A stretch of DNA of 64,000 nucleotides, taken from Cyanobacteria bacterium GSL.Bin1. Lineage in GTDB: Bacteria; Cyanobacteriota; Cyanobacteriia; Cyanobacteriales; Rubidibacteraceae. The notes beneath the pieces were generated by a model. The model was not told the DNA's origin and searched no databases. It was given only the letters and a program-made list of their open reading frames with translations. Made by a program: the position numbers and the translations under genes. The stretch is taken from NCBI GenBank assembly GCA_009909085.1, contig JAAANX010000036.1:1-64000 (forward strand). Reading direction: 5' to 3'. Shown here piece by piece: positions 8,576 through 34,489 of this stretch; within the stretch, counting starts at the first letter, position 1, and every line of letters begins with the position of its first letter.

Positions 8576-11011
8576 CTACGTCGTTTCTTGTTTCTCAGAG
8601 GAAGAATTACCATTCCTGTTAGTGGCAGCGAGAGAGCGTTGAGAAGAAGCCGACCCAGCATAATAATTGTGATAATAGGAATAGTAATAATAGTATTCTC
8701 CCATACTTCTCTGTTGACATGCATTCGGTACGAGTCCTAAGACGTTTGTTCTTGACAAACGTAGGGTGTCCATAACGTCTCTAAAAAGACTGCGATCAAT
8801 AACACCTAATCCAACGACCATAATTAAACCACTGGTTAGGGGGGCGAGTAATTTCGCATCGGCAATTCCACCTAAAGGAGGAGTATCATAAATTACTAAA
8901 TCAAATGAATTTTCCCAATTTTGAGCAAGTTCTTGCATTCTCTCGGAAGCAAGCAGACAATTTGTATCCGGAGGGGTCGGTCCAGAAGTGAGAAGATAGA
9001 GATTATCATCAATCGGGGATTCTTGCATGGTCTCTTCCAGACTTAAGCCAGCGGAAATCACATTAGATAACCCATATTGATTGGGAATTTCAAAGGTTTG
9101 ATGCAGTCGGGGGCGACGCATATCGGCATCGACTAACAACACACGCTTGCCCACTGCTGCTGCTGCTCGGGCTAAATTTAAGGCGACTGTGGATTTCCCT
9201 TCTCCAGGAACACAAGAACTAACAATCAAGGATTTGACCGGGTGATCCGGCTTGAGAAAGGAAAGATTGGTATGTAGGGTTTTAAAGGCTTCTGTAAAGG
9301 CAAAGAATACCGTTCCTGTAATCAGGGGTTTTTGCTCTTTTCCTTCTACAGAATTTAATCTCGGTTTCGTCTCTGCTTCCGTCTCTGAGTTATCATCAAC
9401 AGAGCTAAGACCATTGTCTTGCTCTCCTTCCTGTTTTTGTAGTGCTTTGACAAAGGGAATCACCGCTAAAATAGGGAGACCGGTTTTCTCTTTCACTTCC
9501 TCCACACTATGGAATTTATTATCGATTTTCTCCGCTAAATACGCCGCCCCAGCACCCGCTAACAGGCCGGCAATTGCCCCTAAAATCAGACCGCGACCTT
9601 TACCGGCTATGGGTTCAGTGGGGAGGTTTGGTGGTTCTAAGGTTGACCAAGGTAGCGTTTTTCCTACAGCCTGAATTTGCAACTGCTCTCGGCGACTAAT
9701 CAGGCGTTCCATGTTAGTTTTGGCAATCTCTAACCTCTGCACCATACTTTCATATTCTTTAGCCAGGTTAGCCAAGTTATTCAAATTATTCCGCACTTCT
9801 ACTTCTGCTTCTTCCAGTGCCGCTTCACGGACTCTTAAGACACGAAGTTGATTAGTAGCGGTAATTAAATCTTGAGTTAAAGACAGTCGAACCGGGTTTG
9901 GGGCACTTACTTGCGAGTTAATTTTTTCACTGACTTCCTCTTGACCTAATATGGCCAAAGCTTCTTGGCGTAGTAATTCTAAAAGTCTTTGTTTTTGTTG
10001 CTGTAGGGTTTGGATCTGGGGGCTATCTTCTCTAAAACGCCCAAGCTCGATCGCGATTTGGGTTTCAATTTCTTTTAATTGGTTGAGAAGTTCTTGGTAG
10101 CGCGGGGCTTCACTGAGCGCCACTGTTGTCATTGCCTCATCTAACCCTAATCCCAGCTGCTGTAGTAAACTTTCTCGTAAAGAGATATTTTCTGAAATCG
10201 CCACTTCTGTGTCTTGTTGGCGCTCTTCCAAATTACTCATTTTTTCTGATAAGAGAGTGCCTCGCTCAACGGGGTCAATAATATTGTTCTGGTTCCGAAA
10301 TTGTTGAATTTCAATTTGAATAGAATCCACTTTTTCCTGCAATTCTGGCAGTTGTTCTTCAATCAACTGTAAAACTCTCTGCTCCCCTGATCTCTGCTGC
10401 TCTTGAGAGTAGCCAATATATTCTTCAGCAATGAATCCAGTCACAGCACTTGCCATTTCAGGATCTCCAGATTCGTAACTCACTTCTATAATTTTTGTTT
10501 CTCCCAAGCGTTGTATCGTTAAGTTTCTAATTAAACCTTCGTAAGTGAGTGTTGGATAGTCCTCTTTTAATTGTCTATATATCGGTTGCATTGTCTGAGA
10601 ACTTTTTAAGACTTGGATTTGTGTCGGATAATCCAGCCCTGAGCTTTGCGATGATAAAGATGCTCGAATGGATTCATTGCTTTCCCCAAGCTGTTCACTT
10701 AATTGCTGATACGTTTCGTCGCCAGCAATGGGTTCGACTAAGAGTTGGAAACTACTGCGATATCGAGGGGGTTGGGTTAAGGTCTTTGTCCATATTGCTC
10801 CCGTCACAGTCACTGAAACAATCAAAATTAACCAAACCCGACGCCTAATGATTGCTACTATCTGTCGATAATTGAAGGAATCTTCATCTGTCGGGTTCAA
10901 TATCTCTGGAGGAGAGGTGGTAGCACTCAAGGAGCTTGCTGTAGAAGAAGGCGCATTTGCCAGGGGATACGATTGGTCTGAAGATGCCATATTACTTTGT
11001 CCTGGAGTCAA
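8576..11011 (-). CDS. Polysaccharide co-polymerase with tyrosine autokinase domain (Wzc-like)
   Basis: An 811-aa BY-kinase. A Wzz-type chain-length domain is bounded by membrane segments near residues 58-76 and 475-496, with long coiled-coil stretches between. The cytoplasmic kinase follows: Walker A CVPGEGKST with K606, Walker A' LLVDADMRRPR, and Walker B DLVIYDTPP. The tail carries nine tyrosines within twelve residues (773-784), the usual autophosphorylation cluster. Cycles of phosphorylation of this tail control polymer length and export. It lies between the GT4 gene (66 bp upstream) and wza. All catalytic motifs are intact, unlike its paralogue at 16.9 kb. Confidence 0.93.
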   Translation of the reverse strand: MTPGQSNMASSDQSYPLANAPSSTASSLSATTSPPEILNPTDEDSFNYRQIVAIIRRRVWLILIVSVTVTGAIWTKTLTQPPRYRSSFQLLVEPIAGDETYQQLSEQLGESNESIRASLSSQSSGLDYPTQIQVLKSSQTMQPIYRQLKEDYPTLTYEGLIRNLTIQRLGETKIIEVSYESGDPEMASAVTGFIAEEYIGYSQEQQRSGEQRVLQLIEEQLPELQEKVDSIQIEIQQFRNQNNIIDPVERGTLLSEKMSNLEERQQDTEVAISENISLRESLLQQLGLGLDEAMTTVALSEAPRYQELLNQLKEIETQIAIELGRFREDSPQIQTLQQQKQRLLELLRQEALAILGQEEVSEKINSQVSAPNPVRLSLTQDLITATNQLRVLRVREAALEEAEVEVRNNLNNLANLAKEYESMVQRLEIAKTNMERLISRREQLQIQAVGKTLPWSTLEPPNLPTEPIAGKGRGLILGAIAGLLAGAGAAYLAEKIDNKFHSVEEVKEKTGLPILAVIPFVKALQKQEGEQDNGLSSVDDNSETEAETKPRLNSVEGKEQKPLITGTVFFAFTEAFKTLHTNLSFLKPDHPVKSLIVSSCVPGEGKSTVALNLARAAAAVGKRVLLVDADMRRPRLHQTFEIPNQYGLSNVISAGLSLEETMQESPIDDNLYLLTSGPTPPDTNCLLASERMQELAQNWENSFDLVIYDTPPLGGIADAKLLAPLTSGLIMVVGLGVIDRSLFRDVMDTLRLSRTNVLGLVPNACQQRSMGEYYYYYSYYHNYYAGSASSQRSLAATNRNGNSSSEKQETT

Positions 11012-12340: not shown

Positions 12341-12378
12341 TCTTTTCTAGATCGCTATAAACTATTCAGCTTTATTTT

Positions 12379-12396
12379 AATCAAATGAATTTGATT
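12379..12396. promoter_or_regulatory. Palindrome upstream of the EPS export operon
   Basis: AATCAAAT-GA-ATTTGATT is a perfect 8+8 palindrome centred about 48 bp upstream of the start of the first gene (12340) of the GT4-wzc-wza operon. Position and symmetry suit an operator. In AT-rich DNA it could also arise by chance. Confidence 0.3.
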
Positions 12397-12530
12397 AGTT
12401 TGTAATCTATTAAACTCTAAAAAACAGCTTTCTTTTGCCCAAAAAAACTACGTGATACTATTTATTTTTTAAATTATGATTAAACCATTTAAGTATTTTC
12501 TTGGGGAGCATTTCACTGTTTGAGGATAGC

Positions 12531-13137
12531 TCAAACAGATAATAACCCATTGAGGTAGGCACAGCGATGAACAAGGACTTGGGGTACGTTTTCACACTTC
12601 CTTTGTGCTCCGGAGATTTTAGTGCGACGGTCCACTTGTTTAACAGCAGACTCAACCGCACCAGATCCAATTGAGCAAATCTGTTCAGCTTGATGGTCCT
12701 CGTAGTTGATAATGCGATCACGATGCTGATGCAAGATAACGGCAAAAGTTTTGTGCTGGTTTACGTTTCTAATCAGAAAATCAAGCTTTGGCAACATCAT
12801 TTTCATCGTTAATATTAGCACTCACCCGTAAACAGCAAATTTTTAAATACGGACTCAGTTGACTGTTAGTAGGAACTTCCAATTGCTGCGCTTGTTGGCT
12901 TGTTATTGGCAATTCTCCCAAAATACTTTTCATTCGTTGTTGATACCCTCTACTTGTGTCTGTAACCCTTTCCATAAAAAAACCTACTTCTGGCATGATA
13001 CACTTCTGTATTTGATTCCTCAATGCTTCTTTAATCACTACAATATTAATCACTTTTTGCTGGTGATGTATCTTCATATAGGGTGTTGGCGATTGCCTGT
13101 ATCTGTTCTTGAAGAGCTTGCTGTTTTTCTGGAGTCA
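12531..13137 (-). pseudogene. ISKra4-family transposase, internally deleted remnant
   Basis: The minus strand from 13137 starts MTPEKQQALQEQIQAIANTLYEDT, then a frame change leads to SPYLKICCLRVSAN, both characteristic of the N-terminus of ISKra4 transposases. Near 12,780-12,820 the frame changes again and jumps directly to the C-terminal end (ICSIGSGAVESAVKQ to HRCAYLNGLLSV). The central catalytic part, several hundred codons, is missing. A second C-terminal remnant lies at 16193-16399 in the opposite orientation. Confidence 0.8.
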
Positions 13138-13505
13138 TTGTTTGGTAAGTCAACTCGTCTATTATTTATCCTGCCCGATTTTTAACGTCTTTGCAAAAAA
13201 CTGAGATGCTCCCTTTTCTTGCACGTAAGATTTTACATTAATTATTATTGAATTCCAATATAAGATAGCAAAAATCAGTTAAATTACTTGAGTTTTTTAT
13301 TCCGTAATTTTCTTGATTATTGAATATCTATTTCACTCAAATTAAGCTTATTTTACGTAAGATTACAGTTTTAAGGTTGTAATTGATTTTTAAGTCAATA
13401 CCAAGATCGTACTGAATCAACCATAAAATTCAAACGGCGATTGAGCAACAGATGAAGAGTCTTGGTTGGTGGATCTATGTGACTAAACACTAAAAACCGA
13501 CTTGA

Positions 13506-13700
13506 TCTCTGTTTCAGGCGGTAACGGTCGATCAACAAGAGTATTTAATTGAGCAGGGCTTTAGACGACTGAAAGGATAACCCCTCTCGGTGCAACCGAT
13601 GTTTCTACAACGTGAAGATTCAAATCAAAGTCTGATTCGGTTAAAGCGCGATCGCGCTTTTTTTTTAGCAAGCCCTACTGATCTTTTGGTCAAGTAGCTT
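13506..13700 (+). pseudogene. C-terminal remnant of an IS4/IS1634-like transposase
   Basis: The plus strand reads VDQQEYLIEQGFRRLKG, then an in-frame TAA at 13578, then PLSVQPMFLQRED and a degraded tail. The E-x-GF-x-RLKG-x-PLS-x-x-P-x-x-LQRED pattern is what I know from the C-terminus of DDE transposases of this group. Only about 60 codons remain, with an internal stop. The tail overlaps the palindrome AAAGCGCGATCGCGCTTT (13643-13660) followed by T residues, which might act as a terminator. The rest of 13138-13777 shows no gene. Confidence 0.6.
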
Positions 13701-13777
13701 CAAAAAAATTGGGATGTATTTGTCTCTTAAAAAGCGAGTTTTGACTATTTTCTAGTTTAAAATTCGTTTAAGTTCCT

Positions 13778-15085: not shown

Positions 15086-15449
15086 CCAGAAATTAAATTG
15101 GTTAAGGGTTACAAGGTGAAACTCTCAGTACAGGACAAAAAATGAAAAGAGGGGTTGCCAAGTGAGACAGGAAACGGGTTTCATGGAAAGTTATCAGACC
15201 TAATCCACAAAACCTTATGAAACAGATTAACTTACTTCGTAAAACATTGAAACCATATTGGGCTGGCATGGTGCTAGACTCAAGGAATGAACCCGAACGC
15301 GTGCCTACGGCGCGGGCTTTCGCCCTACGGTTTCACAAGCCTTGAGCGTTGCTCAGTTTCTTGGCTCTCTTCCTGATTGCTCTATTAAGAGTGACTCGTT
15401 CCCCGGAATTCAATTCCGGGGCTTGCGAGTCACCGTTGGTGAAAACCAT
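15086..15449. other. Gene-free stretch with palindromic sequence
   Basis: No coding frame is convincing. It contains GTGCCTACGGCGCGGGCTTT-type sequence near 15300-15330, often seen at cyanobacterial mobile-element ends, and a compound palindrome at 15391-15433 (separate entry). It probably represents remains of an insertion element upstream of the DppC gene. Confidence 0.4.
15391..15433. repeat. Compound palindrome (two nested inverted repeats)
   Basis: An outer pair GTGACTCG/CGAGTCAC encloses an inner perfect pair CCCCGGAATT/AATTCCGGGG with a single-base loop. Together they give 18 paired bases interrupted by small bulges (TT and CTTG). It resembles the subterminal hairpins of IS605-type or REP-like elements, but no transposase of that type is adjacent. 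Confidence 0.65.
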
Positions 15450-15530
15450 TAGACATCTCCAGAAATGAGGATTTGGCAACGGACTGGCAAGGTTTTCAGC
15501 TTTGTTTTTGGGCTTTATTGGAGATGTCTA
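15450..15530. mobile_element. 81-bp MITE-like element with 12-bp terminal inverted repeats
   Basis: TAGACATCTCCA (15450-15461) and TGGAGATGTCTA (15519-15530) are perfect 12-bp inverted repeats at the ends of an 81-bp non-coding segment. It abuts the stop of the truncated transposase frame at 15531, so it may be the terminal part of the same element or a separate MITE inserted there. Confidence 0.5.
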
Positions 15531-15968
15531 TTAACTTAACTGAGGTCGCCACTGGATTCCGAAATACCGCACAGCTGTACTGCCTTGCCAGCGGAGATGA
15601 TAATATCCTTTTCCCAACAAGTCCATTCCCGCTTTGGCTCGCCATCGGGCGATGGTGGAACTATCCAAAGCATTGATTTCCCGTTTCTTTTGACCGATGC
15701 ACACTGGTTCAACTGGCAGGTTTTCCAGACACCATTCCAAACTTCGATCGAACAATCCATCTAATGATACTTTTCCTCTTTCCATTGCCATTTCTACTCG
15801 ATGCCATCCCCACTTGAGATGAAAGACCAAGAGTAGAACGGCACGAGCTAAACTGCCTTGAGAGTGAACTAGACGACCTGTCATCATCACAATTAAGACG
15901 ATACCGATGCAGTAGGCAGTACCTGATGGTAGCGATCGCACCAGATGATTGACTGCTGCTGCTGTCAA
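15531..15968 (-). pseudogene. Truncated DDE-type transposase (N-terminal part)
   Basis: A 145-codon minus-strand frame with a basic, hydrophobic N-terminus and the segment INALDSSTIARWRAKAGMDL, where the Asp of LDSST looks like the first residue of a DDE triad. It then degenerates and stops at RYFGIQWRPQLS, just at the boundary of the 81-bp inverted-repeat element. Two-thirds of a normal transposase is missing. Coding similarity seems to continue upstream without a clear start to about 16008 (reading GDFIQGKLISDKLVEL). The exact IS family is uncertain. Confidence 0.55.
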
Positions 15969-16192
15969 CTCAACTAACTTGTCACTAATGAGCTTACCCT
16001 GAATGAAATCACCGAATAATCACCGAATAATCACTGATTTTTTCAGGGTTTTAGTTTATACCTGAAAAGGTTCAATAAAAATTTACATTATCTATTCTTT
16101 TGCGGTTAACAATAAACCGAAGACAGTTTGAGAAGACACCAAGAGTGCACTTAAACTTTCTGAAGAATTGGGGGTAGTAGTGCCATTTTTCT

Positions 16193-16399
16193 CGTAAACA
16201 TCAACATCGGATTGTTAATTACCAGTATTATCAACAAGAACAAATCTGTTCTATCGGCTCAGGTGGTGTCGAATCAGCAATCAAGCAAATCAGTAGTCGT
16301 ATCAAAATTTCAGGAGCACAATGGAAGGAGGAAAATGTTCCTCAAGTTCTTGCCCATCGATGTGCCTACGTTAATGGACTGATTGGAGTGCAAAGGTGA
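16193..16399 (+). pseudogene. ISKra4-family transposase, C-terminal remnant
   Basis: The plus strand encodes ICSIGSGGVESAIKQISSRIK, then SGAQWKEENVPQVLAHRCAY and ends at TGA 16397-16399. This matches the C-terminal end of the ISKra4 remnant at 12.5 kb almost residue for residue, but in the opposite orientation. About 68 codons remain; nothing upstream back to 16010 continues the frame. The tandem GTGATTATTCG repeat near 16010-16035 is the only other structure nearby. Confidence 0.75.
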
Positions 16400-16529
16400 C
16401 ATGCTACCGTTCTCATGCCATTAGGGCGAACTTAACACCTCACTTGGAAACAGATACAAAGTTTAGCCTTGGTTAATCTCTGCTCCAGAGTCCTAGAACA
16501 GCCCTACCCACCACTACTATAGAATTTAG

Positions 16530-16804
16530 CTAAATCAAGTCAATTAAAGCATCATATTTGGGAGAACTCTCTTGATTAACATATTCTAAAGCCCCCCCCA
16601 ACTTCCCCATTTACTAGGGGACTTGATATCAGAAAAATGCACGAAGAGGTCTTCTCCCAACTGGTGCCATTGTGTCAAATACTCCCGATAAATCTCCCCC
16701 ATTCTCGGGTCGCGATTAGCCTCGATAAACAGATTCGTAATCGCTTGATTGTTTTCAATACCCCCTCGGCTCACTAAATGCTGACCGCCCTCATAAGCCA
16801 GCAT
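16530..16804 (-). pseudogene. 3' fragment of a paralogue of the glycosidase-like gene at 27.5 kb
   Basis: Residues LAYEGGQHLVSRGGIEN, then FIEANRDPRMGEIYREYL and SKWGSWG match the C-terminal 90 residues of the intact 566-aa protein at 27539-29239 with few changes. In this copy a run of C (G on the coding strand) at about 16591-16599 is one base out of frame: reading one G fewer restores ALEYVNQESSPKYDALIDLI and a stop at 16530. The 5' five-sixths of the gene is absent. It is therefore a decayed duplicate lying just upstream of the second wzc-like gene. Confidence 0.88.
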
Positions 16805-16858
16805 TAGTTTGGTTACGTAATTTTTTTAGTAAGCCCCATCTAGTAGAACTTAAAATTT

Positions 16859-19120
16859 ATGAACAAGCATTTACAAGCATCTCAACCTAATAATTTTGAA
16901 GACTTACAAGAAGTAAAGTTAGAACAACCAAACTGGCTACCTTACTTAAGAACGCTACGGCGAAAAGCTTTATTAATTTTTGGTATAGCAGGATTAACTA
17001 CTTTTGCCGTTTTCTTAAATACCTTACGACAACCCCTTAGTTATGGGGGTGATTTTCGGTTGCTTATCGAACCGTTAACTTCAACTGATAAACTGACAGA
17101 TCCTTCAACGATTACCCGAACTGAGGGAATCCCTAATGAAGATTTATTAAGTGTAGATTATCCTACACAGGTAGCAATTTTAAAAGGTGAAGGAATGTTA
17201 CTCAGCATTGCTAAAGAAATTCAAGCGGGAAATCCTGAAGCTAATATTAATAAGCTAATAAAAAAACTAGAGGAAAACCTCTCCGTCCAACGTGTCGGTG
17301 ATACCCGTAGAGATGAAACTAAAATTATAGAGGTGGCTTATACAGATGTAGAGCCAGAACTAACCAAGCAAGTTTTAGAAGTAACCGCTCAGAAATTTAT
17401 CAGCTATAGCGCTGAAGAACAACAGAAAAGAATTGATGCTGGGGTTCAATTTATTGATGAACAACTGTCTCAGCTGCAAAAGGAGCTATCTACACTCCAG
17501 GTGCAACAAAAGCAACTCCAGCAGGAGTATCAGTTAATTGAACCTAATGCCAGAGGTCAAGAATTATTTTCTCAAGTTCATCAGTTAACGCAACAACAAC
17601 GAGAAGTTGCTAGTCAATTTAGAGAATTGAATGCACTTCAGAATAGGCTGCAGAAAAGATTAAATCTAACACCGAGTGAGGCTTTAGTCGCTTTAGCTTT
17701 GAATCAGGATCCTAACCGTGTTGCTTTATTAGAAAAGCTCCAAGAAATTGAAAGAGAGATTGCTATCACTTCAGCGCGCTTTAGATCCAACACTCCGGTC
17801 TTACAAGAATTCAAAGAGCAGCAACAAAATCTGATTGACTTACTTAATCAAAAAACACAGCAACTTTTAGATCAAATTTCAATTCCTGTAGACAGTAATT
17901 CTCCAGCTTTAGAATATCAAGACCCCACTCGTCTTAATCAGATCCAACAACTAGTAGATACTACAAATCAAATTGAGGAATTGAGATCGCGCTATCAGTC
18001 TTTAACAGCAAGTAAAGAAAAGGTAGCTGAGCAAGCAGATCAGTTTCCCGAAATTGCAAGCCAGTATAGAGAAGTAGAGGAACAAATTGGACTGACCAAC
18101 CAAATTGTTAATCGACTCAAGAGCCAGAGAGAAATACTGCGTTTGGAAATTTCTCAAAATAAGATGCCATGGGAGCTCGTGAGCGAGCCTCAAATTAACC
18201 GAGACGTTAATGGTGATCCTGAAGCCACTGCAACCGATAGAAACAAACAACTTTTAGCAGGGATAGTAGGAGGAATGCTTCTCGGCTCAATAGTAGCACT
18301 TCTAGTTGAGAAACGCCGCGATGTTTTTTATGACTCAGAAGATATTCCAGATAAAGTTTCAGTACCACTTTTAGAAACGATTCCTTTTGTAGGGGAAAAA
18401 TTTAAGGGGTCTTATCCCCAAAAATCAATACCATTTGTCAATGCTATTGAGTCTTTATATACTAAACTTTGTTTAACCTATACTAATCCTTCCATTCAAT
18501 CTCTAGTCGTGGCATCTGTGGAACCGAATGAAAATCAATCTATAGTTGCTTTTAACCTAGCGCAAGTAGCTGCTGCTATGGGAAATCAAGTGATTCTAAT
18601 TGATGCTGATTCTCAAGACTCCCAATTTCGTCATCCATTAAACATAGATGATAAGGGAGACTCGGAGCATAGTTTAAGAAAAGATAGTAACTCGGGAGAA
18701 GTTATCCGAAGTTCACAAGTGGATAACCTATCTGTTTTGACTTTAGGTGTTTCTTTACGTAAGACTGGTAAAAGGCTTTGGTCGAATCAAATAAAACAAC
18801 TGATGAAGGCTTGGCAAGAAAAATATGACCTTGTGATATATAATGGTCCTCCTTTATCCCAATCTACGGATATTAATTTTCTTGCTGCTCATACGGATGG
18901 AATCATGTTAGTTTCAGAAATTAACAAATCTAAATGTTCTCTGGTAGAAAAAAGCATCAAACAACTCAATGATTATAATTTGAATGTTTTAGGAGTCGTT
19001 GCTATTAAACAGGCTTTAAAACAAAAAAACAGTTCAAATCACAATGTATCAGAAAAATATATCATTGATGAATTTCGCAATCCCTATAACAGTGATTTAT
19101 ATGACAGATTTTTTGACTAA
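16859..19120 (+). CDS. Wzc-like polysaccharide co-polymerase with degenerate kinase domain
   Basis: A 753-aa protein with the architecture of Wzc: Wzz-type domain with membrane segments near residues 37-54 and 460-480, coiled coils between, and a C-terminal BY-kinase fold. The catalytic motifs are broken. Walker A is VEPNENQSI (554-562) instead of CVPGEGKST, with Q560 in place of the Lys. Walker B is DLVIYNGPP (657-665) instead of DLVIYDTPP. The Walker A' ILIDAD survives. The C-terminal tyrosine cluster is missing (YDRFFD end). It probably cannot bind or transfer phosphate but may still set chain length or pair with the active Wzc at 8.6-11 kb. First gene of the plus-strand EPS island. Confidence 0.88.
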   Translation: MNKHLQASQPNNFEDLQEVKLEQPNWLPYLRTLRRKALLIFGIAGLTTFAVFLNTLRQPLSYGGDFRLLIEPLTSTDKLTDPSTITRTEGIPNEDLLSVDYPTQVAILKGEGMLLSIAKEIQAGNPEANINKLIKKLEENLSVQRVGDTRRDETKIIEVAYTDVEPELTKQVLEVTAQKFISYSAEEQQKRIDAGVQFIDEQLSQLQKELSTLQVQQKQLQQEYQLIEPNARGQELFSQVHQLTQQQREVASQFRELNALQNRLQKRLNLTPSEALVALALNQDPNRVALLEKLQEIEREIAITSARFRSNTPVLQEFKEQQQNLIDLLNQKTQQLLDQISIPVDSNSPALEYQDPTRLNQIQQLVDTTNQIEELRSRYQSLTASKEKVAEQADQFPEIASQYREVEEQIGLTNQIVNRLKSQREILRLEISQNKMPWELVSEPQINRDVNGDPEATATDRNKQLLAGIVGGMLLGSIVALLVEKRRDVFYDSEDIPDKVSVPLLETIPFVGEKFKGSYPQKSIPFVNAIESLYTKLCLTYTNPSIQSLVVASVEPNENQSIVAFNLAQVAAAMGNQVILIDADSQDSQFRHPLNIDDKGDSEHSLRKDSNSGEVIRSSQVDNLSVLTLGVSLRKTGKRLWSNQIKQLMKAWQEKYDLVIYNGPPLSQSTDINFLAAHTDGIMLVSEINKSKCSLVEKSIKQLNDYNLNVLGVVAIKQALKQKNSSNHNVSEKYIIDEFRNPYNSDLYDRFFD

Positions 19121-19401
19121 AAAGTAAACTAATCAAAAGAAGAGCCTACGGATTTAGAAATTTTTTTTTGCTAATTTTCAAATTAAATGCTTTCTCAATT
19201 GGTATTTTACGAGTTGATTTAACATACTCAGTTTGGTATGACCAGAGTGTAACCAGCTTACTCAATATACTCTCTGACCATCTGTTGATCTGGTACACTT
19301 TGTTGGCTTTGAGCTTAACTCACGAGGCACCTTAGCTATTGATGAAAAACTCTTGCTTGGCTCTTAATCAAAATTAATACTTGAGAACTTGGAAGCACTT
19401 A

Positions 19402-20523
19402 ATGGAAACCTGTAAAATTCTAAATATTAATATATACAATACTTCCCTAAAAGAATTATTAAAAAAAATTAAGAAAGGCGGATTTGTCGTCACTCCTAAT
19501 CTTGATCATATGGTAAAGCTACAAAAAGACGTTGATTTTTTTGTAGCATATAGTAATGCCGATTATGTGATTTGTGACAGCAAAATTCTACAATGGACTT
19601 CTTGGTTTTTAGGTAATAAAATCCAAGAAAAAATATCTGGCTCTGATTTTTTTCCTCAATTTTATGACTATTACAAGCATGATAAAAGTATACAAATTTT
19701 TTTGTTAGGAGGTTCTAAAGGAATAGCCGATCTAGCTAGGCAAAACATTAATCATAAAGTGGGCAGAGAAATAGTAGTTGGATCCTATTCCCCATCTTTC
19801 AGTTTTGCAAGTAATGAAAGGGAATCAAAAAAAATCGTTAAACTAATTAATGAATCTAAGGCAACCGTTTTAGCTGTAGGCGTAGGAGCTCCTAAGCAGG
19901 AAAAATGGATTAACAAATATAGGAATGAATTGAAAAATATTAAAATTTTTCTAGCTATTGGAGCCACCATTGATTTTGAAGCTAAACGTTTTAAAAGAGC
20001 ACCTAAATGGATGAGTGATAGAGGACTGGAATGGTTATATCGACTATTGTGTGATCCTAAGCGATTGTGGAAAAGATATTTGGTAGAAAGCCTTCCTTTC
20101 TTTTGGTTAATTTTACAGCAAAAGCTCAATTTTTATCAATACAAAGAACCGATTTGGCTTATTTTACAGAAAGCTGATTTGCTCTCACAAGAGCAAGTAA
20201 ATTATATACTCAGTTTACAAAGGGAGAATAGTACACTTTGTTTTAGCGAAATTGTTATACAGAACGGATGGCTCAAAGCAGAAACTATTAATTTTTTTAC
20301 TCGTGAATTCGATCAATTAGCTAGTCAGCCAAAAAGAAAAACAATCGAACAACTTTGTAGAGCTGCATCTCTATTAAATGAGCAGCAGATTGCTGAGATT
20401 TTAAAAGATCAAGAAAGTACAAATTTAAAATTTAAGGAAATAGCTATAAATAAAAATTGGCTAACTCCAAAGACCATAGAGTTTTTACTAAATTATTGCA
20501 TTCCTAATCCTTCTCAAAAGTAA
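19402..20523 (+). CDS. WecG/TagA/CpsF-family glycosyltransferase with tandem C-terminal repeat domain
   Basis: A 373-aa protein. Residues 1-245 are a GT26 transferase: TPNLDHMVKLQ near 31-41 and the signature GVGAPKQEKW at 160-169. Such enzymes add ManNAc/ManNAcA-type or other sugars to a lipid-linked primer. Two repeats of about 46-50 residues follow (about 254-299 and 317-367), each of the form LL-x-x-QQI/V-x-x-IL-x-x-Q, then F-x-EI, GWL and T-I-x-F, reminiscent of cyanobacterial MshEN-like modules. The ATG at 19402 is preferred because GGAAG precedes it by 8 nt; a TTG at 19381 would add seven residues. It lies 2 bp upstream of wzx. Confidence 0.85.
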   Translation: METCKILNINIYNTSLKELLKKIKKGGFVVTPNLDHMVKLQKDVDFFVAYSNADYVICDSKILQWTSWFLGNKIQEKISGSDFFPQFYDYYKHDKSIQIFLLGGSKGIADLARQNINHKVGREIVVGSYSPSFSFASNERESKKIVKLINESKATVLAVGVGAPKQEKWINKYRNELKNIKIFLAIGATIDFEAKRFKRAPKWMSDRGLEWLYRLLCDPKRLWKRYLVESLPFFWLILQQKLNFYQYKEPIWLILQKADLLSQEQVNYILSLQRENSTLCFSEIVIQNGWLKAETINFFTREFDQLASQPKRKTIEQLCRAASLLNEQQIAEILKDQESTNLKFKEIAINKNWLTPKTIEFLLNYCIPNPSQK

Positions 20524-20525
20524 AT

Positions 20526-21890
20526 ATGCCATCAACTGCGACAAAGAAGCTTGCCATTCAAGGTGCTGCTTGGACCGTATTTGGATATGGCTTCAGCCAA
20601 GGGCTAAGATTAGTTAGTAACTTAGTTCTAACGCGCTTGCTAGTCCCTGAGCTATTTGGGCTAATGGCTTTGGTGAATACCTTTATTACTGGTCTCAACT
20701 TATTTTCTGATGTTGGAATTGGTCCAAGTATTATTCAAAACAAACGCGGCGAAGATCCAGACTTTTATAATACTGCTTGGACAATACAGTTAATAAGAGG
20801 CTTTGGGCTGTGGCTTTGTTGCTTTCTTATTGCTTGGCCAGTTGCTCAATTTTATAATGATCTTCGATTAATTTGGTTACTTCCTACTGTTGGCTTAACA
20901 ACAGTTATTGCTGGCTTTAACTCTACGGCTATATTCACCCTTAATCGCCGAATTGCACTCGGTAAATTAACAAAATTTGAGTTAAAAGTACAAGTGCTTG
21001 GAATGATAGTAATGATTATTTGGGCAGCTATTCATCCGAGTATCTGGGCATTGATCATAGGTAATTTTGTTACTAGTATTCTAAAAATGATCTGGAGCCA
21101 CAGATTAGTTCCAGAAAAAACTAATTTTTTGGCTTGGAATCAAGAGGCTGTTAATGAACTTATTGTCTTTGGGAAATGGATATTTGTATCAACAGCCATG
21201 ACGTTTTTAGCTTCTCAAACTGATCGATTGCTTCTAGGAAAACTCCTATCACTAGAGATGTTAGGTATTTATACTATTGCTTTTCTATTTGCAGATATGC
21301 CGCGCCAGATCATTCAAAAAGTAAGCAATAAAGTAATTTTTCCAGTAGTTTCTCAAATGACTAATCTCCCTCGCTCGAGCCTTCGCCGTAAATTGTTGCA
21401 AGAGCGAACTTTAATCCTGATTGGGTTTGCCATTTTCTTAAGCATTTTAATTAGCTTTGGCGATTGGTTGATCATAGCTTTGTATGATGAAAGATATGCT
21501 CAAGGTGCTTGGATGTTGCCAATTCTTGCATTAGGTATTTGGCCACGTTTACTATCGGTAACAATTAATCCAGTACTCTTTGCTATTGGTAATCCTAGAT
21601 ATATAGCTTTCGGCAACTTTTTTAAGTTTATATATATGATAATTGGATTGCCCTTAGGATTTTCTATAATAGGAGTTTTAGGAGTTGTAATTGTAATAGC
21701 ATTAAATGATCTTCCTTTTTATGGAGTAGTTACCTATGGTCTTTGGAAAGAAAACTTATCACCTTTATTGCAGGATATTCAGGCAAGTATACTGCTTATT
21801 GGATTACTTTCTCTAATTTTATTTAGTCGCATTAGTCTGGGTTATGGAATTCCTATCAACGGAATTTTACAGAATTTCTCATTTCAATGA
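20526..21890 (+). CDS. Oligosaccharide flippase, Wzx/PST type (MOP superfamily)
   Basis: A 454-aa membrane protein with about 12 hydrophobic segments. It has the family opening LAIQGAAWTVFGYGFSQGLRLVSNLVLTRLL split over the first helix, and FADMPRQIIQKVSNKVIFPVVSQM in the middle, typical of PST-type flippases. It would move lipid-linked repeat units across the plasma membrane for polymerisation. It starts 2 bp after the WecG-type gene, clearly co-transcribed. A single Wzx in the window serves both EPS blocks as far as can be seen. Confidence 0.9.
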   Translation: MPSTATKKLAIQGAAWTVFGYGFSQGLRLVSNLVLTRLLVPELFGLMALVNTFITGLNLFSDVGIGPSIIQNKRGEDPDFYNTAWTIQLIRGFGLWLCCFLIAWPVAQFYNDLRLIWLLPTVGLTTVIAGFNSTAIFTLNRRIALGKLTKFELKVQVLGMIVMIIWAAIHPSIWALIIGNFVTSILKMIWSHRLVPEKTNFLAWNQEAVNELIVFGKWIFVSTAMTFLASQTDRLLLGKLLSLEMLGIYTIAFLFADMPRQIIQKVSNKVIFPVVSQMTNLPRSSLRRKLLQERTLILIGFAIFLSILISFGDWLIIALYDERYAQGAWMLPILALGIWPRLLSVTINPVLFAIGNPRYIAFGNFFKFIYMIIGLPLGFSIIGVLGVVIVIALNDLPFYGVVTYGLWKENLSPLLQDIQASILLIGLLSLILFSRISLGYGIPINGILQNFSFQ

Positions 21891-22018
21891 GATACAAAAT
21901 AAAGCCTGAAGCTAATGATAAGCCCATGTAGTATTTTTAATGATTAGTCTTTAATAATTGAATTTCCGTAAAGTGATAACAACTATTCTCACAATTTTAA
22001 AGTACAAGGTTTTTCTAA

Positions 22019-22879
22019 ATGTCTTCACCAGTAGACTTGCTCTTCATCACCTGGAATCGTCGAGAATATGTGGAGAGAACACTTTCAAACATCTTGAAAG
22101 ATCCATCAGATTTTCGACTTTATTGCTGGGATAATGGTTCTAAGGATGGAACAGCAGACCTAATTGCCTCAATTAGTGATACACGTGTAGCTAAACGGCA
22201 TTTCAATCCAAAGAATGTTGGACAGTTTGAACCATGTATGTGGTTTTTTGAAACAGCGACAAGCGACGTAGTTGGCAAAGTTGATGATGATATACTCCTT
22301 CCCCCAGGTTGGACCGAAAAAATTGCACCTATGATTCGCAAACAACCTAATTTTGGTATGCTCGGTTGCTGGATCTTCATGCCAGAAGATTGGGACGAAA
22401 ATCTAGCACAGCAAAACATAGTTGAACTTTCTGGCGAACGGGTGTTTCGAACGATCACTATTCAAGGACAATCTTTTTTAGCTCGAAAAGAATACCTGCT
22501 GCGCTACAAACTTAGTCAACCGAGAGGGCATAGTATTCCTATTAATCGCCCAGCTATGACCTTTGACGGTTTAATTAACGGTTATCCTGTTCCGTTATTA
22601 TACGCCCATAACATGGATGACCCACGATCACCCCTGAATCTCAAAACAAAATCTGGTGCTCTCGGAACAGAGGCAGCACTGACTGCTCGTAGCCGCGGTT
22701 TTCAATCAGCAGAAGATTATGCGAAATGGATTGCGGCAGATGCTCGCCGTCGTCAACAAGAACCTTTTGACAAACAACTAAAACAATTCAAGCTAGTAAG
22801 AGATAAAAGTTTGATAGGAAGAATCAAACGGAAACTTTTACCAATTCAAAACTTGATTGACAAGATAGTAGGATTCTAA
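22019..22879 (+). CDS. Glycosyltransferase family 2
   Basis: A 286-aa GT-A protein. The N-terminus LLFITWNRREYVERTL and DNGSKDGT (about residues 39-46) form the nucleotide-binding half, and KVDDDILLPPGW (about 89-100) carries the DxD-like metal site. There is no membrane segment. It probably extends the EPS repeat unit on the cytoplasmic face. It is separated by 128 bp from wzx and 71 bp from the Wzy-like gene. Sugar specificity is unknown. Confidence 0.87.
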   Translation: MSSPVDLLFITWNRREYVERTLSNILKDPSDFRLYCWDNGSKDGTADLIASISDTRVAKRHFNPKNVGQFEPCMWFFETATSDVVGKVDDDILLPPGWTEKIAPMIRKQPNFGMLGCWIFMPEDWDENLAQQNIVELSGERVFRTITIQGQSFLARKEYLLRYKLSQPRGHSIPINRPAMTFDGLINGYPVPLLYAHNMDDPRSPLNLKTKSGALGTEAALTARSRGFQSAEDYAKWIAADARRRQQEPFDKQLKQFKLVRDKSLIGRIKRKLLPIQNLIDKIVGF

Positions 22880-22950
22880 AGCAAATCTTTATATATAGTA
22901 AATTTAGTATCTCATCTAGTTGCCTATATTCTTATTTTTTTAGAAAAGCT

Positions 22951-24360
22951 ATGAGTTTTTTAGTATCCATAGTTATGTTTGGCTGGATTCCATTCATCAT
23001 ATATATTTTTAGGTATTTTGGCCCTCAACAAGCAGTGGTTAGTTGTTTCATAGGAGCTTGGCTGTTTCTCCCAGAGGCAAGCTTCCCTATACAGGGGCTT
23101 CCAGACTATACCAAAATATCAGCAACCTGCTATGGCATATTGTTAGCTACTCTTACCTCCTATGGAAAGCCTTTTCGCTTATTTCGATCAGGTTTTCGAT
23201 GGGGTTGGTTCGATTTAGTGTTAATTGTTCCTGCTGCCTTAATTTACTATGCAAAACATCTTCGTTCATTTCGATTGAGTTGGTTTGATTTACCAATGTT
23301 GATTTGGTGTCTGTGCCCTTTTGCTTCTTCAATAGCTAATGGTCTTGGTTGGTACGATGGCTTATCAGCTTCACTCGCACAAACTATATTTTGGGGAGGA
23401 CCTTATTTTTTGGGGCGCTTTTACCTTAACAGCTTAGCTGGACTAAAACGACTAGCCATTGGTATTTTTTGGGGTGGTCTCATTTATGTTCCATTATGCT
23501 TGTATGAAGTCCGGATGAGTCCACAGTTACATAATTTGATTTATGGTTACCATCCTCACTCATTTGCTCAAACAATGCGCTACGGAGGATTTAGACCAAC
23601 AGTATTCATGCAGCATGGGTTAATGGTTGGAATGTGGATAATGGCAGCCACATTAGTAGGAATTTGGCTTTGGAAAACTGGAGTTCTTAGACAACTATGG
23701 GGCATTCCAATGCCTTATCTTGTAATAACTTTAATCATCACCCTGATTTTAGTTAAATCTACTGGAGCCTACGTCTATATGTTAGCTGGATTAGTTATTT
23801 TATTTATAGCTCGTTGGTTTCGGACTGCAGTGATGTTGCTACTGTTAACGGCTAGCATATTGTTCTACCTATACTTAGGGTCAAGCGGTAACTTAAATGG
23901 CGATCGCGTCGTTTCTTGGGCAGCTACAATTTTTAATGAAGACCGAGCCGGCTCTTTAGAATTCAGGATTGACAATGAAGAAATACTTGCAGAGAAAGCA
24001 CGTCAGCAACCAATTTTTGGTTGGGGAGGATGGGGGCGATCAAGAGTATATGAAGAAAACTGGGCAGGAGAACTGGTAGATATTACAACTACTGATAGCC
24101 TTTGGATTATTACCTTTGGAGAACATGGCTATGTTGGTCTAATCAGTTTAACAACATCAATGCTATTGCCTGTTGTTGGATTTTGCTGCCTGCGTTATCC
24201 AGCAAAATATTGGTCTCACCGCCAAGTAGCACCAGCAGCAGTACTCGCTGTAGTAGTCGTTTTGTACATGCTTGACTGTACCTTGAATGCCATGATTAAT
24301 CCAGTCTTTATACTTGCCTGTGGCGGTATATCCGGGCTAGTACAACAAGAAAAAAATTAG
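22951..24360 (+). CDS. O-antigen polymerase/ligase-like membrane protein (Wzy-type)
   Basis: A 469-aa protein with about eleven hydrophobic segments and one long extracytoplasmic loop (NGDRVVSWAATIFNEDRAGS and the following stretch with FRIDNEEILAEKARQQPIFGWGGWGR), the layout of O-antigen ligases and Wzy polymerases. The FGWG-x-GR motif is common in this group. Position between a GT2 and a sulfotransferase in a cluster with Wzx makes the polymerase role likely. Contains the only exact HIP1 site (23900) between 16 and 36 kb. Sequence alone cannot separate Wzy from ligase. Confidence 0.8.
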   Translation: MSFLVSIVMFGWIPFIIYIFRYFGPQQAVVSCFIGAWLFLPEASFPIQGLPDYTKISATCYGILLATLTSYGKPFRLFRSGFRWGWFDLVLIVPAALIYYAKHLRSFRLSWFDLPMLIWCLCPFASSIANGLGWYDGLSASLAQTIFWGGPYFLGRFYLNSLAGLKRLAIGIFWGGLIYVPLCLYEVRMSPQLHNLIYGYHPHSFAQTMRYGGFRPTVFMQHGLMVGMWIMAATLVGIWLWKTGVLRQLWGIPMPYLVITLIITLILVKSTGAYVYMLAGLVILFIARWFRTAVMLLLLTASILFYLYLGSSGNLNGDRVVSWAATIFNEDRAGSLEFRIDNEEILAEKARQQPIFGWGGWGRSRVYEENWAGELVDITTTDSLWIITFGEHGYVGLISLTTSMLLPVVGFCCLRYPAKYWSHRQVAPAAVLAVVVVLYMLDCTLNAMINPVFILACGGISGLVQQEKN

Positions 24361-24448
24361 TACAACACCACTCAAATTAAGCCAGCTAAAAGAGTAGGTA
24401 TAACAAAAATAGTCATAACGAAAATATAAGCTTAGAGATTTTTCTAAA

Positions 24449-25405
24449 GTGGAAGCACATACCCCTTTAATCACTCAACCCATTTTTCTCGTTGGAGCTG
24501 AGCGTTCAGGCACCACAGTTTTAAGACTCATGCTTGATCACCATCCTCAACTTGCTTGGTGTAACGAATTTGAGTATGTAGTTGATCGGATAACTGCCAG
24601 TAATGGTTGGCCAGAACTTGAAGAGTATTACAAATGGTTAGAAACTCATCGGATCTTTCAAGCGACTGGTTTTACCATTGACCGTTCTTTAAACTACCCT
24701 CAATTAGTTAACAGTTTTTTATGTCAAAAGCGGGAGGCCAGAGGAAAATCTCTTGTTGGTGCTACAGTTCACCGTCATTTTGACCAATTGTTGAAAATTT
24801 GGCCTGATGCTCGATTCATCCATTTAATCCGTGATGGCAGAGATGTAGCTCGTTCTTGCATTCCTATGGGTTGGGCAGGGAATGTTTGGACAGGAGCTGA
24901 GCGTTGGCTCAAAGCAGAGTCTTTGTGGACACAACTCTGTCAAAAACTTCCAGCAGAGCAGCAAATTGAGATCACTTATGAAGACTTGATTTCCAATCCG
25001 ATTAATAACCTAACGCGTCTGTGTGAATTTATCGGTATCCCCTTTGATTTAGCAATGCTGAGTTATCCTCAGAAAACTAGTTATGATTTCCCTAATCCAA
25101 ACTTAATTTGCCAGTGGAAATCCAAAATGTCAAAGCGGGAAATTCAGTTGGTTGAATCTCGGATTTCAACTATGTTACTTGAGCGCGGATATCAACTAAG
25201 TGGACTACCACTGCTAACGATTACTTCTACAATGGAGCGAAGACTCAACCGACAAGATTGGTGGTTCCGCGTATGGTTTCGAGTCCAAAAATTTGGTCTG
25301 TTACTGTTTTTATCAGATTACTTTTCGCGAAAATTTGGACTGATACATTGGCAGAAGCGGATTCAACTACAACTTAACGAAATTGTAAAAGCTCATCTTA
25401 AGTAA
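24449..25405 (+). CDS. Sulfotransferase family protein
   Basis: A 318-aa PAPS-dependent sulfotransferase. The 5'-phosphosulfate loop is VGAERSGTTVLRLML (residues 15-29) and the 3'-phosphate site RFIHLIRDGRDVARSC begins at residue 122. GTG at 24449 is the only start that keeps the P-loop; no clear Shine-Dalgarno precedes it. Lying among glycosyltransferases, it is expected to sulfate a sugar of the EPS unit, though the acceptor is unknown. The next GT2 gene follows after 5 bp. Confidence 0.88.
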   Translation: MEAHTPLITQPIFLVGAERSGTTVLRLMLDHHPQLAWCNEFEYVVDRITASNGWPELEEYYKWLETHRIFQATGFTIDRSLNYPQLVNSFLCQKREARGKSLVGATVHRHFDQLLKIWPDARFIHLIRDGRDVARSCIPMGWAGNVWTGAERWLKAESLWTQLCQKLPAEQQIEITYEDLISNPINNLTRLCEFIGIPFDLAMLSYPQKTSYDFPNPNLICQWKSKMSKREIQLVESRISTMLLERGYQLSGLPLLTITSTMERRLNRQDWWFRVWFRVQKFGLLLFLSDYFSRKFGLIHWQKRIQLQLNEIVKAHLK

Positions 25406-25410
25406 ATTTT

Positions 25411-26373
25411 ATGCATCTTGCGATAATTATTCTCAACTATCGCACGCCAACCCTTGTCATTGAATGCTTATCTGCTCTTCAAAATCAAGTTGAGGCAGAT
25501 AAGCATTCTGTCATAGTAGTTGATAATGCCTCTGGGGATGGCTCAGTGACACAAATTGAAAGGGCAATTACTACAAATAACTGGAGACCATGGGTACAAG
25601 TTTTACCATCCCCTATCAATGGCGGATTTTCAGCAGGCAATAATTTTGGGATTGAAGCTGTTGTTGCAGATGCTTACTTACTCTTAAATAGCGATACAGT
25701 TGTTCAGGCTGGGGCGATTAAAGCATTATTGAATGCTTTGAGAACACATCCAGAGGCTGGCATAATCAGTCCACGTTTAGAGTGGTCCGATGGTACTCCA
25801 CAAATTAGCTGTTTTCGTTATCATTCCCCAGTTAGCGAGTTAATTGCCTCTGCTGCAACTGGACCAATTACTAAACTCCTTAAATTTTATGATGTGCCCA
25901 TTCCAGTATCTGACGAACCTATAGAACCGGAGTGGACGAGCTTTGCTTGTGTCCTAATTCGGCGTGCAGTAATCGATCAAGTTGGCTTGATGGATGAGGG
26001 ATATTTTATGTATTTTGATGATATTGATTATTGTCGCAGAACGAGAGATGCTGGGTGGAAAATTCTCCATTGGCCTGAAGCCCATGTCGTACATCTCCGC
26101 GGCGGAAGTGGATCGGTAAAGACTGACGTTGCATCTTGCAAACGTCCTCCAACCTACCTTTATCAATCGCGCTCAAGGTACTTTACAAAATTTTACGGTT
26201 CAATTGGACTATTAACTGCTAACTTGTTTTGGCTTGCCGGTCGAAGTATTTCGCTGGTGCGAGAGCTAGTTAATCATAAGCAGCCTCATATTTGTGAATT
26301 TGCAGCGCGCGATATTTGGATAAATTGGTTGGAATCCTCGAAACCGTCTTTTATTTCTCGGAGAAATGATTAA
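25411..26373 (+). CDS. Glycosyltransferase family 2, rhamnosyltransferase-like
   Basis: A 320-aa GT-A protein. The start LAIIILNYRTPTLVIECL, the segment VVDNASGDGS (about residues 36-45) and LLNSDTVVQAGAI (about 90-102, D-site) are typical of WbbL/rhamnosyltransferase-like GT2s. YFMYFDDIDYCRRTRDAGW near residue 196 is the conserved ED/DD region. Five-bp gaps on both sides place it in one transcription unit with the two sulfotransferases. Confidence 0.9.
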   Translation: MHLAIIILNYRTPTLVIECLSALQNQVEADKHSVIVVDNASGDGSVTQIERAITTNNWRPWVQVLPSPINGGFSAGNNFGIEAVVADAYLLLNSDTVVQAGAIKALLNALRTHPEAGIISPRLEWSDGTPQISCFRYHSPVSELIASAATGPITKLLKFYDVPIPVSDEPIEPEWTSFACVLIRRAVIDQVGLMDEGYFMYFDDIDYCRRTRDAGWKILHWPEAHVVHLRGGSGSVKTDVASCKRPPTYLYQSRSRYFTKFYGSIGLLTANLFWLAGRSISLVRELVNHKQPHICEFAARDIWINWLESSKPSFISRRND

Positions 26374-26378
26374 TAGCA

Positions 26379-27251
26379 ATGAACAATTGTCCCGATTTTA
26401 TTATTATCGGTGCCATGAAATGTGGTACCAGCACACTGCATGAGCAACTTGCTCTACAACCTAGTATTTTTATGAGTACGCTGAAAGAACCCAACTTTTT
26501 CAGCGACGACCAAGAGTATTATCGAGGAATAGAGTGGTATTTAGCACACTTTCAGCAAGCTAGAGCTAACGAATTATGTGGTGAATCCAGTACACACTAT
26601 ACCAAATTACCAACTTATCCCCACACCGTTGAACGCATTTGCCAGCACCTGTCAGGAGTAAAATTTATCTATATAATACGCCACCCAATTGATAGACTAG
26701 TGTCCCACTATATTCATGAATGGACGCAAAAAGTGATTTCAGTAGAGATTAATCAAGCTGTTAATCAGCACCGTGAACTGATTGATTATAGCTGCTATAG
26801 TATGCAGTTAAAGCCTTATTTTGAGACTTTTGGACAACAATCAGTTTTACCCGTTTTTTTTGAAAGGCTTCTCACTCATAAACAAGAGGAATTGGAAAGA
26901 ATTTGCCGCTTTATCGGTTATAAAGGTCAACCGATTTGGAATAGAGAACTGGATGCTCAAAATGTTTCAAATGAGCGGATGCGCAAGAGTTGGTGGAGGG
27001 ACTTTTTAGTTGAAGTGCCTGGACTCAGAGAAATTCGACGTACATTTATTCCTAAAAGCTGGCGCAATTCGATTAGACGCTTATGGATGATCAAAAAAAA
27101 ACCAGAACTTGAGCTCAAACAAATAGAGTATCTACAAGAAGTTTTTGATAGAGACTTATCTATACTAAGTTCTTGGCTGGGGACTTCACTTTGTTGCGAA
27201 AACTTTAAAGCCAAAACTCAGTCTCAATCTTTAGATTGGTTAGAACGCTGA
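26379..27251 (+). CDS. Sulfotransferase domain protein (second)
   Basis: A 290-aa sulfotransferase of a different subgroup from the 24.4-kb gene. It has the loop IIGAMKCGTSTLHEQL (residues 9-24), the KEPNFF segment after it and the 3'-phosphate motif YIIRHPIDRLVSHY (residues 98-111). It resembles heparan-sulfate/NodH-like enzymes that act on carbohydrates. Two distinct sulfotransferases separated by one GT2 suggest sulfation at two positions. The downstream gap of 287 bp holds a MITE-like element. Confidence 0.9.
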   Translation: MNNCPDFIIIGAMKCGTSTLHEQLALQPSIFMSTLKEPNFFSDDQEYYRGIEWYLAHFQQARANELCGESSTHYTKLPTYPHTVERICQHLSGVKFIYIIRHPIDRLVSHYIHEWTQKVISVEINQAVNQHRELIDYSCYSMQLKPYFETFGQQSVLPVFFERLLTHKQEELERICRFIGYKGQPIWNRELDAQNVSNERMRKSWWRDFLVEVPGLREIRRTFIPKSWRNSIRRLWMIKKKPELELKQIEYLQEVFDRDLSILSSWLGTSLCCENFKAKTQSQSLDWLER

Positions 27252-27406
27252 AATCCATATTGGTTCTTAATCTGAGCTATCAATTAGAGTACTCAGAAAT
27301 TTAGACACCAAAGTAAAGTTATTCTAATTAATAGGAAAATAGTATGGATGAAAGATATTTACTGAAAGTTCTTAATACATCGATGTTTACGGAGAGTGAC
27401 AGAACA

Positions 27407-27507
27407 GGGTTATAGCACTCAGAAATTATTCATGAGAGGAAGCCACCTTTGACACAACAAGTATAGAAAATTGGGCTCTCACATCTGACTTTTGATTGCT
27501 ATAACCC
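27407..27507. mobile_element. 101-bp MITE-like element with 11-bp terminal inverted repeats
   Basis: GGGTTATAGCA (27407-27417) and TGCTATAACCC (27497-27507) are perfect inverted repeats bounding a non-coding segment in the gap before the glycosidase-like gene. The size and end symmetry fit a miniature transposable element. A partial internal echo, ACTCAGAAATT, also occurs just outside it near 27292. No obvious target duplication is seen. Confidence 0.5.
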
Positions 27508-27538
27508 ATCTGATCTTTAGAAATTAGCTCTAAAAAAA

Positions 27539-29239: not shown

Positions 29240-29453
29240 TGCTGAGTAATGCTAAACAAGTCATGATGCATCATTGTAATCCACAAAATACCAAATTGTA
29301 CCAATGTAATTTTCCAACGATATTGAAATGGATTTCTCTGCCAATTCTAAGCTAATTGATCTTTTGAGTGATTCCCTATATGTAAGAACTTACTCGAACG
29401 AAGTCGCTAGGGTGTCCGCCTGACGATTAGGCTTGATCTTTATCAGTATCAGC

Positions 29454-34247: not shown

Positions 34248-34489
34248 GTTAGTTGGTTTTTTGGAGCTTTTATTTTACTGAAAGGATGGTTTAAAGAGTG
34301 TGATCTGCTTTTCAACAAGAAATTCAGTAGATGCTAATATGAGTTTGATCGTGTTATTGGCGTAATGATTTACTGTTAATGACTCTTTGCACATATTCTA
34401 ATACAAGTAGAAATTAATCCCACTGATTAGACAATTTAAATCTTGAATTAGAGAATCGTTATAATATATAATGACTTGTAAAAAAATAA
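34248..34489. other. AT-rich spacer before a decayed glycosyltransferase
   Basis: No gene is visible. The TATAATATATAATG sequence near 34460-34473 could be a relic promoter of the decayed GT4 that follows. Confidence 0.3.

Follow-up and report, generated by a model that had tools for sequence, protein, structure and literature searches.

The window, by which we mean the whole 64,000-nucleotide stretch of DNA that was analysed, carries two genes for PCP-2a proteins, one of which encodes a Wzc with intact kinase motifs while the other encodes P0001, in which these motifs are degenerate. The locus thus raises the question of what P0001 is: a kinase copy on its way to being lost, a dead subunit that joins its live neighbour in mixed rings, or a co-polymerase in its own right that serves a second polymer without phosphorylation.

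Motifs and predicted fold of P0001

P0001 is encoded at 16859-19120 on the plus strand by a frame of 753 codons that translation showed to be open throughout, as the initial annotation had stated. Promoter-like sites in 16300-19500 were not in excess, with 8 found against 8.8 expected from shuffles. Hydropathy revealed two hydrophobic segments near residues 33-58 and 462-487, in keeping with the earlier description of both membrane segments as retained. The first membrane helix was placed at residues 37-55 (16967-17023, +), based on hydropathy and a helix predicted over the same residues, and the second at about residues 463-485 (18245-18313, +), where hydropathy peaks from residue 465 and a helix is predicted at 461-486. 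The Wzz-type part had also been described as kept; this holds insofar as the N-terminal part aligns with that of the nearby Wzc, P0002, but the Pfam Wzz model (PF02706), which matched P0002, gave no match in P0001 at E ≤ 0.001.

Translation and alignment bore out the reported degeneration of both Walker motifs. In Walker A (VEPNENQSI, residues 554-562; 18518-18544, +) the lysine is replaced by Q560, encoded by CAA at 18536-18538, and in Walker B (DLVIYNGPP, residues 657-665; 18827-18853, +) the aspartate is replaced by N662, encoded by AAT at 18842-18844. The motif loss is wider than had been noted, as the alignment columns show that the P-loop glycine preceding the glutamine and the EX2RX2R motif (residues 528-537, NAIESLYTKL; 18440-18469, +) are gone too. 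The latter is the oligomerisation motif of BY-kinases, one of the elements that keep the cytoplasmic ring together in canonical members. Walker A' (ILIDAD, residues 579-584; 18593-18610, +) is present as described; in an active BY-kinase this motif is DxD followed by an arginine, and P0001 retains both aspartates with the arginine replaced (LIDADSQDS). The terminal tyrosine cluster is indeed missing, although the 37-residue tail does hold three scattered tyrosines, Y734, Y743 and Y748, compared with nine in the tail of P0002. Against NCBIfam TIGR01007, P0001 scored 87 bits (91.4 in a second search) and P0002 153.8, with a cut-off of 108. Since some relatives without the Walker A lysine exceed this cut-off, it is no test of activity.

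An AlphaFold2 model built from 42 aligned rows had a mean pLDDT of 81.1 and a pTM of 0.47. Its individual domains are fairly reliable as predicted, whereas the arrangement between domains is uncertain, as reflected by the pTM and by an rmsd of 15-46 Å over whole chains. Model residues 487-725 matched the BY-kinase domains 3la6, 3bfv, 4jlv and 2ved with Z scores of 27.5-28.1 and an rmsd of 2.2-3.3 Å over 216-231 residues. The best Foldseek chains were whole Wzc, to which residues 24-720 of the model could be aligned; the PDB matches considered were BY-kinase and ParA/MinD folds. The model thus has the PCP-2a architecture of two membrane helices, long periplasmic helices and a cytoplasmic BY-kinase fold in one chain. 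The kinase-like domain also corresponds to the EcpK type, a BY-kinase fold without catalytic motifs or tyrosine tail, except for the retained DAD of Walker A'. P0001 is, however, not a stand-alone pseudokinase, its BY-kinase-like domain being fused to its own PCP.

The lysine-less clade and the order of motif loss

An initial scan of named genomes with P0001 as the sole query found no relative. Across the order, matches at E ≤ 1e-100 were present in 119 of 388 genomes. Taking 100 regions, mostly around such matches, together with earlier loci yielded 117 distinct PCP-2a proteins besides P0001 and P0002, a set collected by similarity to P0001, so that the proportions given below are not population estimates. 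The two genome collections used overlap, and for neighbourhoods, motif counts and dN/dS identical proteins, recognised by their last 250 residues, were counted once. A search of plasmid proteins brought up XssK (Sll5052) of Synechocystis PCC 6803, annotated there as YhjQ/BcsQ, which has glutamine for the Walker A lysine (DNESGQAS) and no tyrosine cluster.

In a tree of 102 rows computed from the columns before the kinase-like domain (16 of 118 rows having been dropped at ≥90% identity), P0001 and XssK fell into a group of 33 rows with an SH-aLRT of 100, all without the lysine (27 Gln, 6 Cys). A second tree used the columns outside the kinase-like domain and 68 rows hand-picked from the 102, leaving out three near-identical Cys rows, L028 and 30 of the 63 Lys rows. 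Here P0001 and XssK shared a 30-row clade with a support of 100/100, and every one of its rows lacks the lysine; P0002 lies outside. The conserved loss within one clade for which the initial annotation had proposed to search was therefore found, and the loss in P0001 is more than chance. Over the whole 68-row tree at least three changes between lysine and no lysine are needed. A second, smaller group lost the lysine separately; among its rows are L104, which has the lysine, and L131, whose loop alignment is doubtful. The branch of P0001 is long, at 0.9 compared with a median of 0.45. A further PCP type outside both trees (L276/L294, genome G327) has EGTS for EGKS in Walker A, which is another separate loss. 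One relative, L136, whose kinase-like part lies in another frame, was excluded from both trees and from the motif and dN/dS counts.

Among the 178 distinct proteins of both collections, 40 lack the lysine, with 30 Gln, 6 Cys and one each of Ala, Ser, Ile and Arg in its place. A tail with at least four tyrosines occurs in none of these 40, compared with 47 of the 138 proteins that keep the lysine (Fisher p 9e-7, a descriptive value as the rows are related). Where the lysine is kept and EX2RX2R is lost, 72 of 75 proteins have fewer than four tail tyrosines, and in 68 of these 75 the second Walker A' aspartate is changed to Asn, compared with 6 of 63 proteins with canonical motifs; P0001 with its DAD is an exception to this change. 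Fewer than four tail tyrosines were also counted in 19 of the 63 canonical rows. From the proteins that keep the lysine but have lost EX2RX2R, it would seem that the tyrosine tail, EX2RX2R and the second aspartate were lost first and the lysine later. Another tail-less PCP type also recurred in the sample, with a [FY]YERxRS motif, the lysine kept and 0-1 tail tyrosines (L282, L284-L289, L291, L293, L297, L301, L302, L304, L305, L308 and L314).

The downstream xss-like cluster and the neighbouring Wzc

Thirteen genes at 19381-38423 were tested against the xss cluster of Synechocystis, and nine of them match it at 46-64% identity. All nine are on the plus strand: a WecG/TagA/CpsF glycosyltransferase with a C-terminal MshEN-like part (19381-20523; 60% over 260 aa), a Wzx (20526-21890; 63% to the oligosaccharide flippase of xss), a Wzy polymerase (22951-24360; 46%), a sulfotransferase (24449-25405; 54% to one xss sulfotransferase), a GT2 glycosyltransferase (25411-26373; 64%), a further sulfotransferase (26379-27251; 61% to the other one of xss) and three glycosyltransferases (34997-38423; 58%, 47% and 53%). 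The other four had no xss match at E ≤ 1e-6; they encode a GT2 (22019), a 566-aa protein (27539), a G8-domain protein (29454) and an acyltransferase-like protein (33756). Further along, at 57680-59125, a priming sugar transferase shares 46% identity over 189 aa with its xss counterpart. The order PCP, Wzx, Wzy, sulfotransferase, GT2, sulfotransferase is identical in the window and in xss, on one strand. Because of the shared genes and their common order, we conclude that a synechan-type cluster is present in the window and that P0001 occupies the position of XssK. At 33% identity to XssK, P0001 is the least conserved part common to both clusters. XssK differs in being plasmid-borne, and P0001 in its tail with three tyrosines and in having a live Wzc and an OPX gene nearby; no OPX gene is annotated in the 42-kb stretch around XssK. 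Several xss-like genes are also shared by the loci L062, L068 and L109, all with lysine-less PCPs.

Two genes of the cluster have additional features. The C-terminal part of the WecG/TagA protein matches an MshEN-related c-di-GMP-binding domain with 35.5 bits, the cut-off being 38, and the WecG of xss is shorter (263 aa) and may be without this part. The G8-domain gene (29454-33338, −), which lies within the polysaccharide cluster, encodes a 1294-aa protein that also matches a CEMIP-like beta-helix and PKD.

Neighbours of the relatives were sought with the window's own proteins at E ≤ 1e-8, a search that misses distant ones; loci with less than 4 kb on a side were excluded and the window itself was not counted. 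Within 6 kb, an OPX homologue was found at 25 of 33 canonical loci, at 11 of 56 loci with the lysine kept and EX2RX2R lost, and at none of 29 lysine-less loci. The corresponding counts were 0/33, 23/56 and 8/29 for Wzx and 0/33, 16/56 and 9/29 for Wzy. This pattern is in keeping with PCPs that work for the cluster beside them and use a borrowed exporter, which is how the available part of PMC8205485 describes XssK and XssT, although Wzx or Wzy was recognised near only a minority of the loci. A sulfotransferase like those of the window was found within 6 kb at 4 of the 29 lysine-less loci, 6 of the 56 and none of the 33 canonical ones, and sulfation was rejected as a function common to the whole clade.

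The intact Wzc reported some 6 kb away is real. P0002 is encoded at 8576-11011 on the minus strand, 5.8 kb from P0001 and divergent from it. Domain match, alignment and tree identify it as a canonical BY-kinase with intact Walker A (CVPGEGKST), Walker B (DLVIYDTPP) and tyrosine tail; it is 29% identical to P0001 over 735 alignment positions. It adjoins an OPX exporter of the Wza type with Poly_export and SLBB domains (6864-8522, −), which could possibly be shared by P0001. The transposon debris said to separate the two genes is supported, at least as repeats: self-matches aside, 15086-16858 has 23 partial matches in other parts of this genome and 12341-13777 has 6. Two similar fragments in opposite orientation, 12531-12821 (−) and 16181-16399 (+), flank the debris between the PCP genes and look transposase-like by eye; 12531-12821 had no Pfam match. 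Upstream of P0001, 16586-16825 (−) shares about 80% DNA identity with the end of the open 566-aa gene (27539-29239, +). This gene has no Pfam match at E ≤ 0.05, and its relatives occur near several PCPs of the P0001 family.

Alternatives and the probable role of P0001 as a kinase-dead co-polymerase

If P0001 were a recently inactivated copy decaying amid transposon debris, one might expect the repeats upstream of it, its absence at E ≤ 1e-100 from all five congeners examined, its long branch and its low retention of clade-conserved kinase-like positions (18 of 26, the second lowest of 33 rows, with XssK at 20 of 28). Some extra decay of P0001 is possible, and in L136 (8451-11104) the PCP and kinase-like parts are in different frames, which may reflect decay, a split gene or an assembly error. 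The frame of P0001, however, is open over all its codons and heads an xss-like cluster of open frames, and the loss of the lysine is common to an old clade. In addition, the domain is constrained in relatives. NG86 dN/dS was computed for 35 distinct lysine-less pairs of 62-98% identity, identical proteins having been merged. In the 18 pairs with both dS values below 1.5 (12 Cys-Cys, 4 Gln-Gln, 2 mixed), dN/dS was 0.10-0.21 for the dead domain and 0.12-0.29 outside it; over all 35 pairs the dead domain gave 0.09-0.25, with dS saturated in many. A relative close enough for a direct estimate on P0001 was not found, the best match being 47% identical. The rapid decay among relatives that would speak against a maintained pseudokinase was thus not seen, L136 being the one exception to open frames, and selection appears to maintain the domain in the relatives, as had been suggested. 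Since the lysine loss belongs to the old clade and the domain is constrained there, we rejected recent decay of P0001, which is highly improbable. We also consider it very unlikely that the domain still binds nucleotide or catalyses through other residues. The aspartates of Walker A' are kept and many relatives have DGQST-like loops, but in P0001 the glycine of the loop and the aspartate of Walker B are missing as well, and in Wzc phosphorylation is lost when K540 is mutated (PMC8285477, available part).

The initial annotation had raised mixed rings of dead and live copies as one option. On such a reading, P0001 would join P0002 in hetero-octamers and modulate it, or P0002 would phosphorylate the three tail tyrosines of P0001. 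Both genes are close together in one genome, their predicted fold is common, P0001 does have three tyrosines in its tail, and 20 of 34 lysine-less genomes, that of the window included, hold at least one copy with four or more tail tyrosines. On the other hand, identity between the two proteins is just 29%, and P0001 has lost EX2RX2R and the tyrosine cluster. Furthermore, in 12 of the 34 genomes no tyrosine-tailed PCP-2a was present among the TIGR01007 matches at E ≤ 1e-15, all of which were read, a count that is blind to kinases below this limit or in assembly gaps; completeness is 90% or more for nine of these genomes (G300, G295, G265, G131, G168, G330, G312, G324 and G327). Other PCPs in the 12 genomes have 0-1 tail tyrosines and the remaining matches are MinD-like. 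Split kinases were rejected as a reading of the matches of about 270 aa, the four that were read being MinD-like in starting with GKGGVGKTT. Four genomes with a lysine-less PCP (G315, G271, G367 and G024) were left out of this comparison, G333 with three tail tyrosines is in neither count, and a copy in G203 at a contig end was unread. Around the lysine-less genes themselves, none of 36 regions of at least 9 kb, with flanks of at most about 9 kb in most, held a second PCP frame above 500 aa. Conserved dead/live pairing was therefore rejected, and given the 12 genomes without a tyrosine-tailed PCP-2a, mixed rings cannot be general. In Synechocystis, moreover, deletion of the live Wzc gene sll0923 caused no bloom defect, synechan blooms being independent of it (PMC8205485, available part). 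Mixed rings with P0002 are thus very unlikely, and the evidence favours the other option raised at the outset, in which P0001 works by itself for a second polymer.

In summary, P0001 is indeed a pseudokinase PCP and, most likely, a maintained one. The computation covers homology, predicted fold, motif loss, an old lysine-less clade, constraint on the domain in relatives and synteny with xss. We therefore attribute to P0001, with good probability, the role of an XssK-type, single-chain co-polymerase of the synechan-like sulfated exopolysaccharide pathway encoded downstream, independent of phosphorylation and with its pseudokinase domain as a putative scaffold. That P0001 itself works in this manner is inferred. 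As a scaffold in periplasm and membrane, it would bring Wzy and an OPX exporter together in the manner of Wzc, with no need to bind ATP, to phosphorylate itself or to cycle with a phosphatase; control of P0001 by phosphorylation is unlikely. With the tyrosine tail and EX2RX2R both gone, its assembly would depend on its periplasmic and membrane portions, and the retained kinase-like domain may be a structural, docking or spacing module. More speculatively, the MshEN-like part of the next gene, just below the cut-off, might provide a c-di-GMP input. For the sampled order we propose only tentatively that many PCP-2a left tyrosine phosphorylation stepwise (tyrosine tail, EX2RX2R, second Walker A' aspartate, then lysine) and that some genomes run Wzx/Wzy export without any tyrosine-tailed BY-kinase, via other inputs, perhaps c-di-GMP.

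Published systems allow several comparisons, the sources being cited from their available parts except where the main text is named. Deletion of xssK abolished the bloom and suppressed EPS (PMC8205485), whereas an earlier sll5052 (xssK) mutant in another strain, as told there, had no clear phenotype. Transfer of xssA-P with xssQ, R and T to S. elongatus PCC 7942 led to a sulfated polysaccharide not identical to synechan (PMC13125312). That this host is without Wzc is taken from PMC4594306, according to which EPS proteins beyond a few ubiquitous ones are "usually absent" in its clade; the same source ascribes canonical Walker motifs to cyanobacterial PCP-2a "in many cases". Wzc K540M (7nhr and others) is kinase-dead like P0001 and octameric in the laboratory, though in the unphosphorylated mutant the octamer is held by the tyrosine tail in the active site of the neighbour (PMC8285477), and in that case the lysine change is engineered and the tyrosine-rich tail retained, whereas P0001 has no tail cluster. 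In the model for Wzc, export requires cycling between phosphorylated monomers and unphosphorylated octamers (PMC8285477). EcpK/EpsV of Myxococcus and HfsB/HfsA of Caulobacter share the BY-kinase-like fold, but there the pseudokinase is a separate protein; EcpK, which has neither Walker motifs nor tyrosine tail, is proposed as a BY pseudokinase scaffold that serves its PCP-2 without phosphorylation (PMC12004946). PCP-2 variants of the S. meliloti SMc01795 type, like P0001, combine PCP and pseudokinase in one chain, and such single-chain proteins were previously noted in other bacteria (PMC12004946, after Cuthbertson et al.).

Pseudokinase PCPs as such are thus already known; new here are such a clade in cyanobacteria, the placement of XssK within it, the sequence in which the motifs were lost and the lack of a tyrosine-tailed partner in several genomes. 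In the open-licence literature, as far as it was available, no description of a lysine-less cyanobacterial clade or of XssK as kinase-dead was found. The available text of PMC8205485 has "Walker" and "tyrosine" once each, in the reference list, and no statement found there calls XssK kinase-dead; that of PMC6562117 does not mention sll5052, that of PMC3566033 does not mention tyrosine, kinase or motif, and the main text of PMC12004946 contains no word starting with "cyanobacteri". The finding bears on annotation, as plasmid-borne relatives are labelled tyrosine kinase, YhjQ/BcsQ or hypothetical protein. Finally, synechan is a well-studied sulfated polysaccharide of a transformable cyanobacterium, and as a naturally kinase-dead PCP is essential for it, the non-kinase role of the kinase domain can be tested directly.
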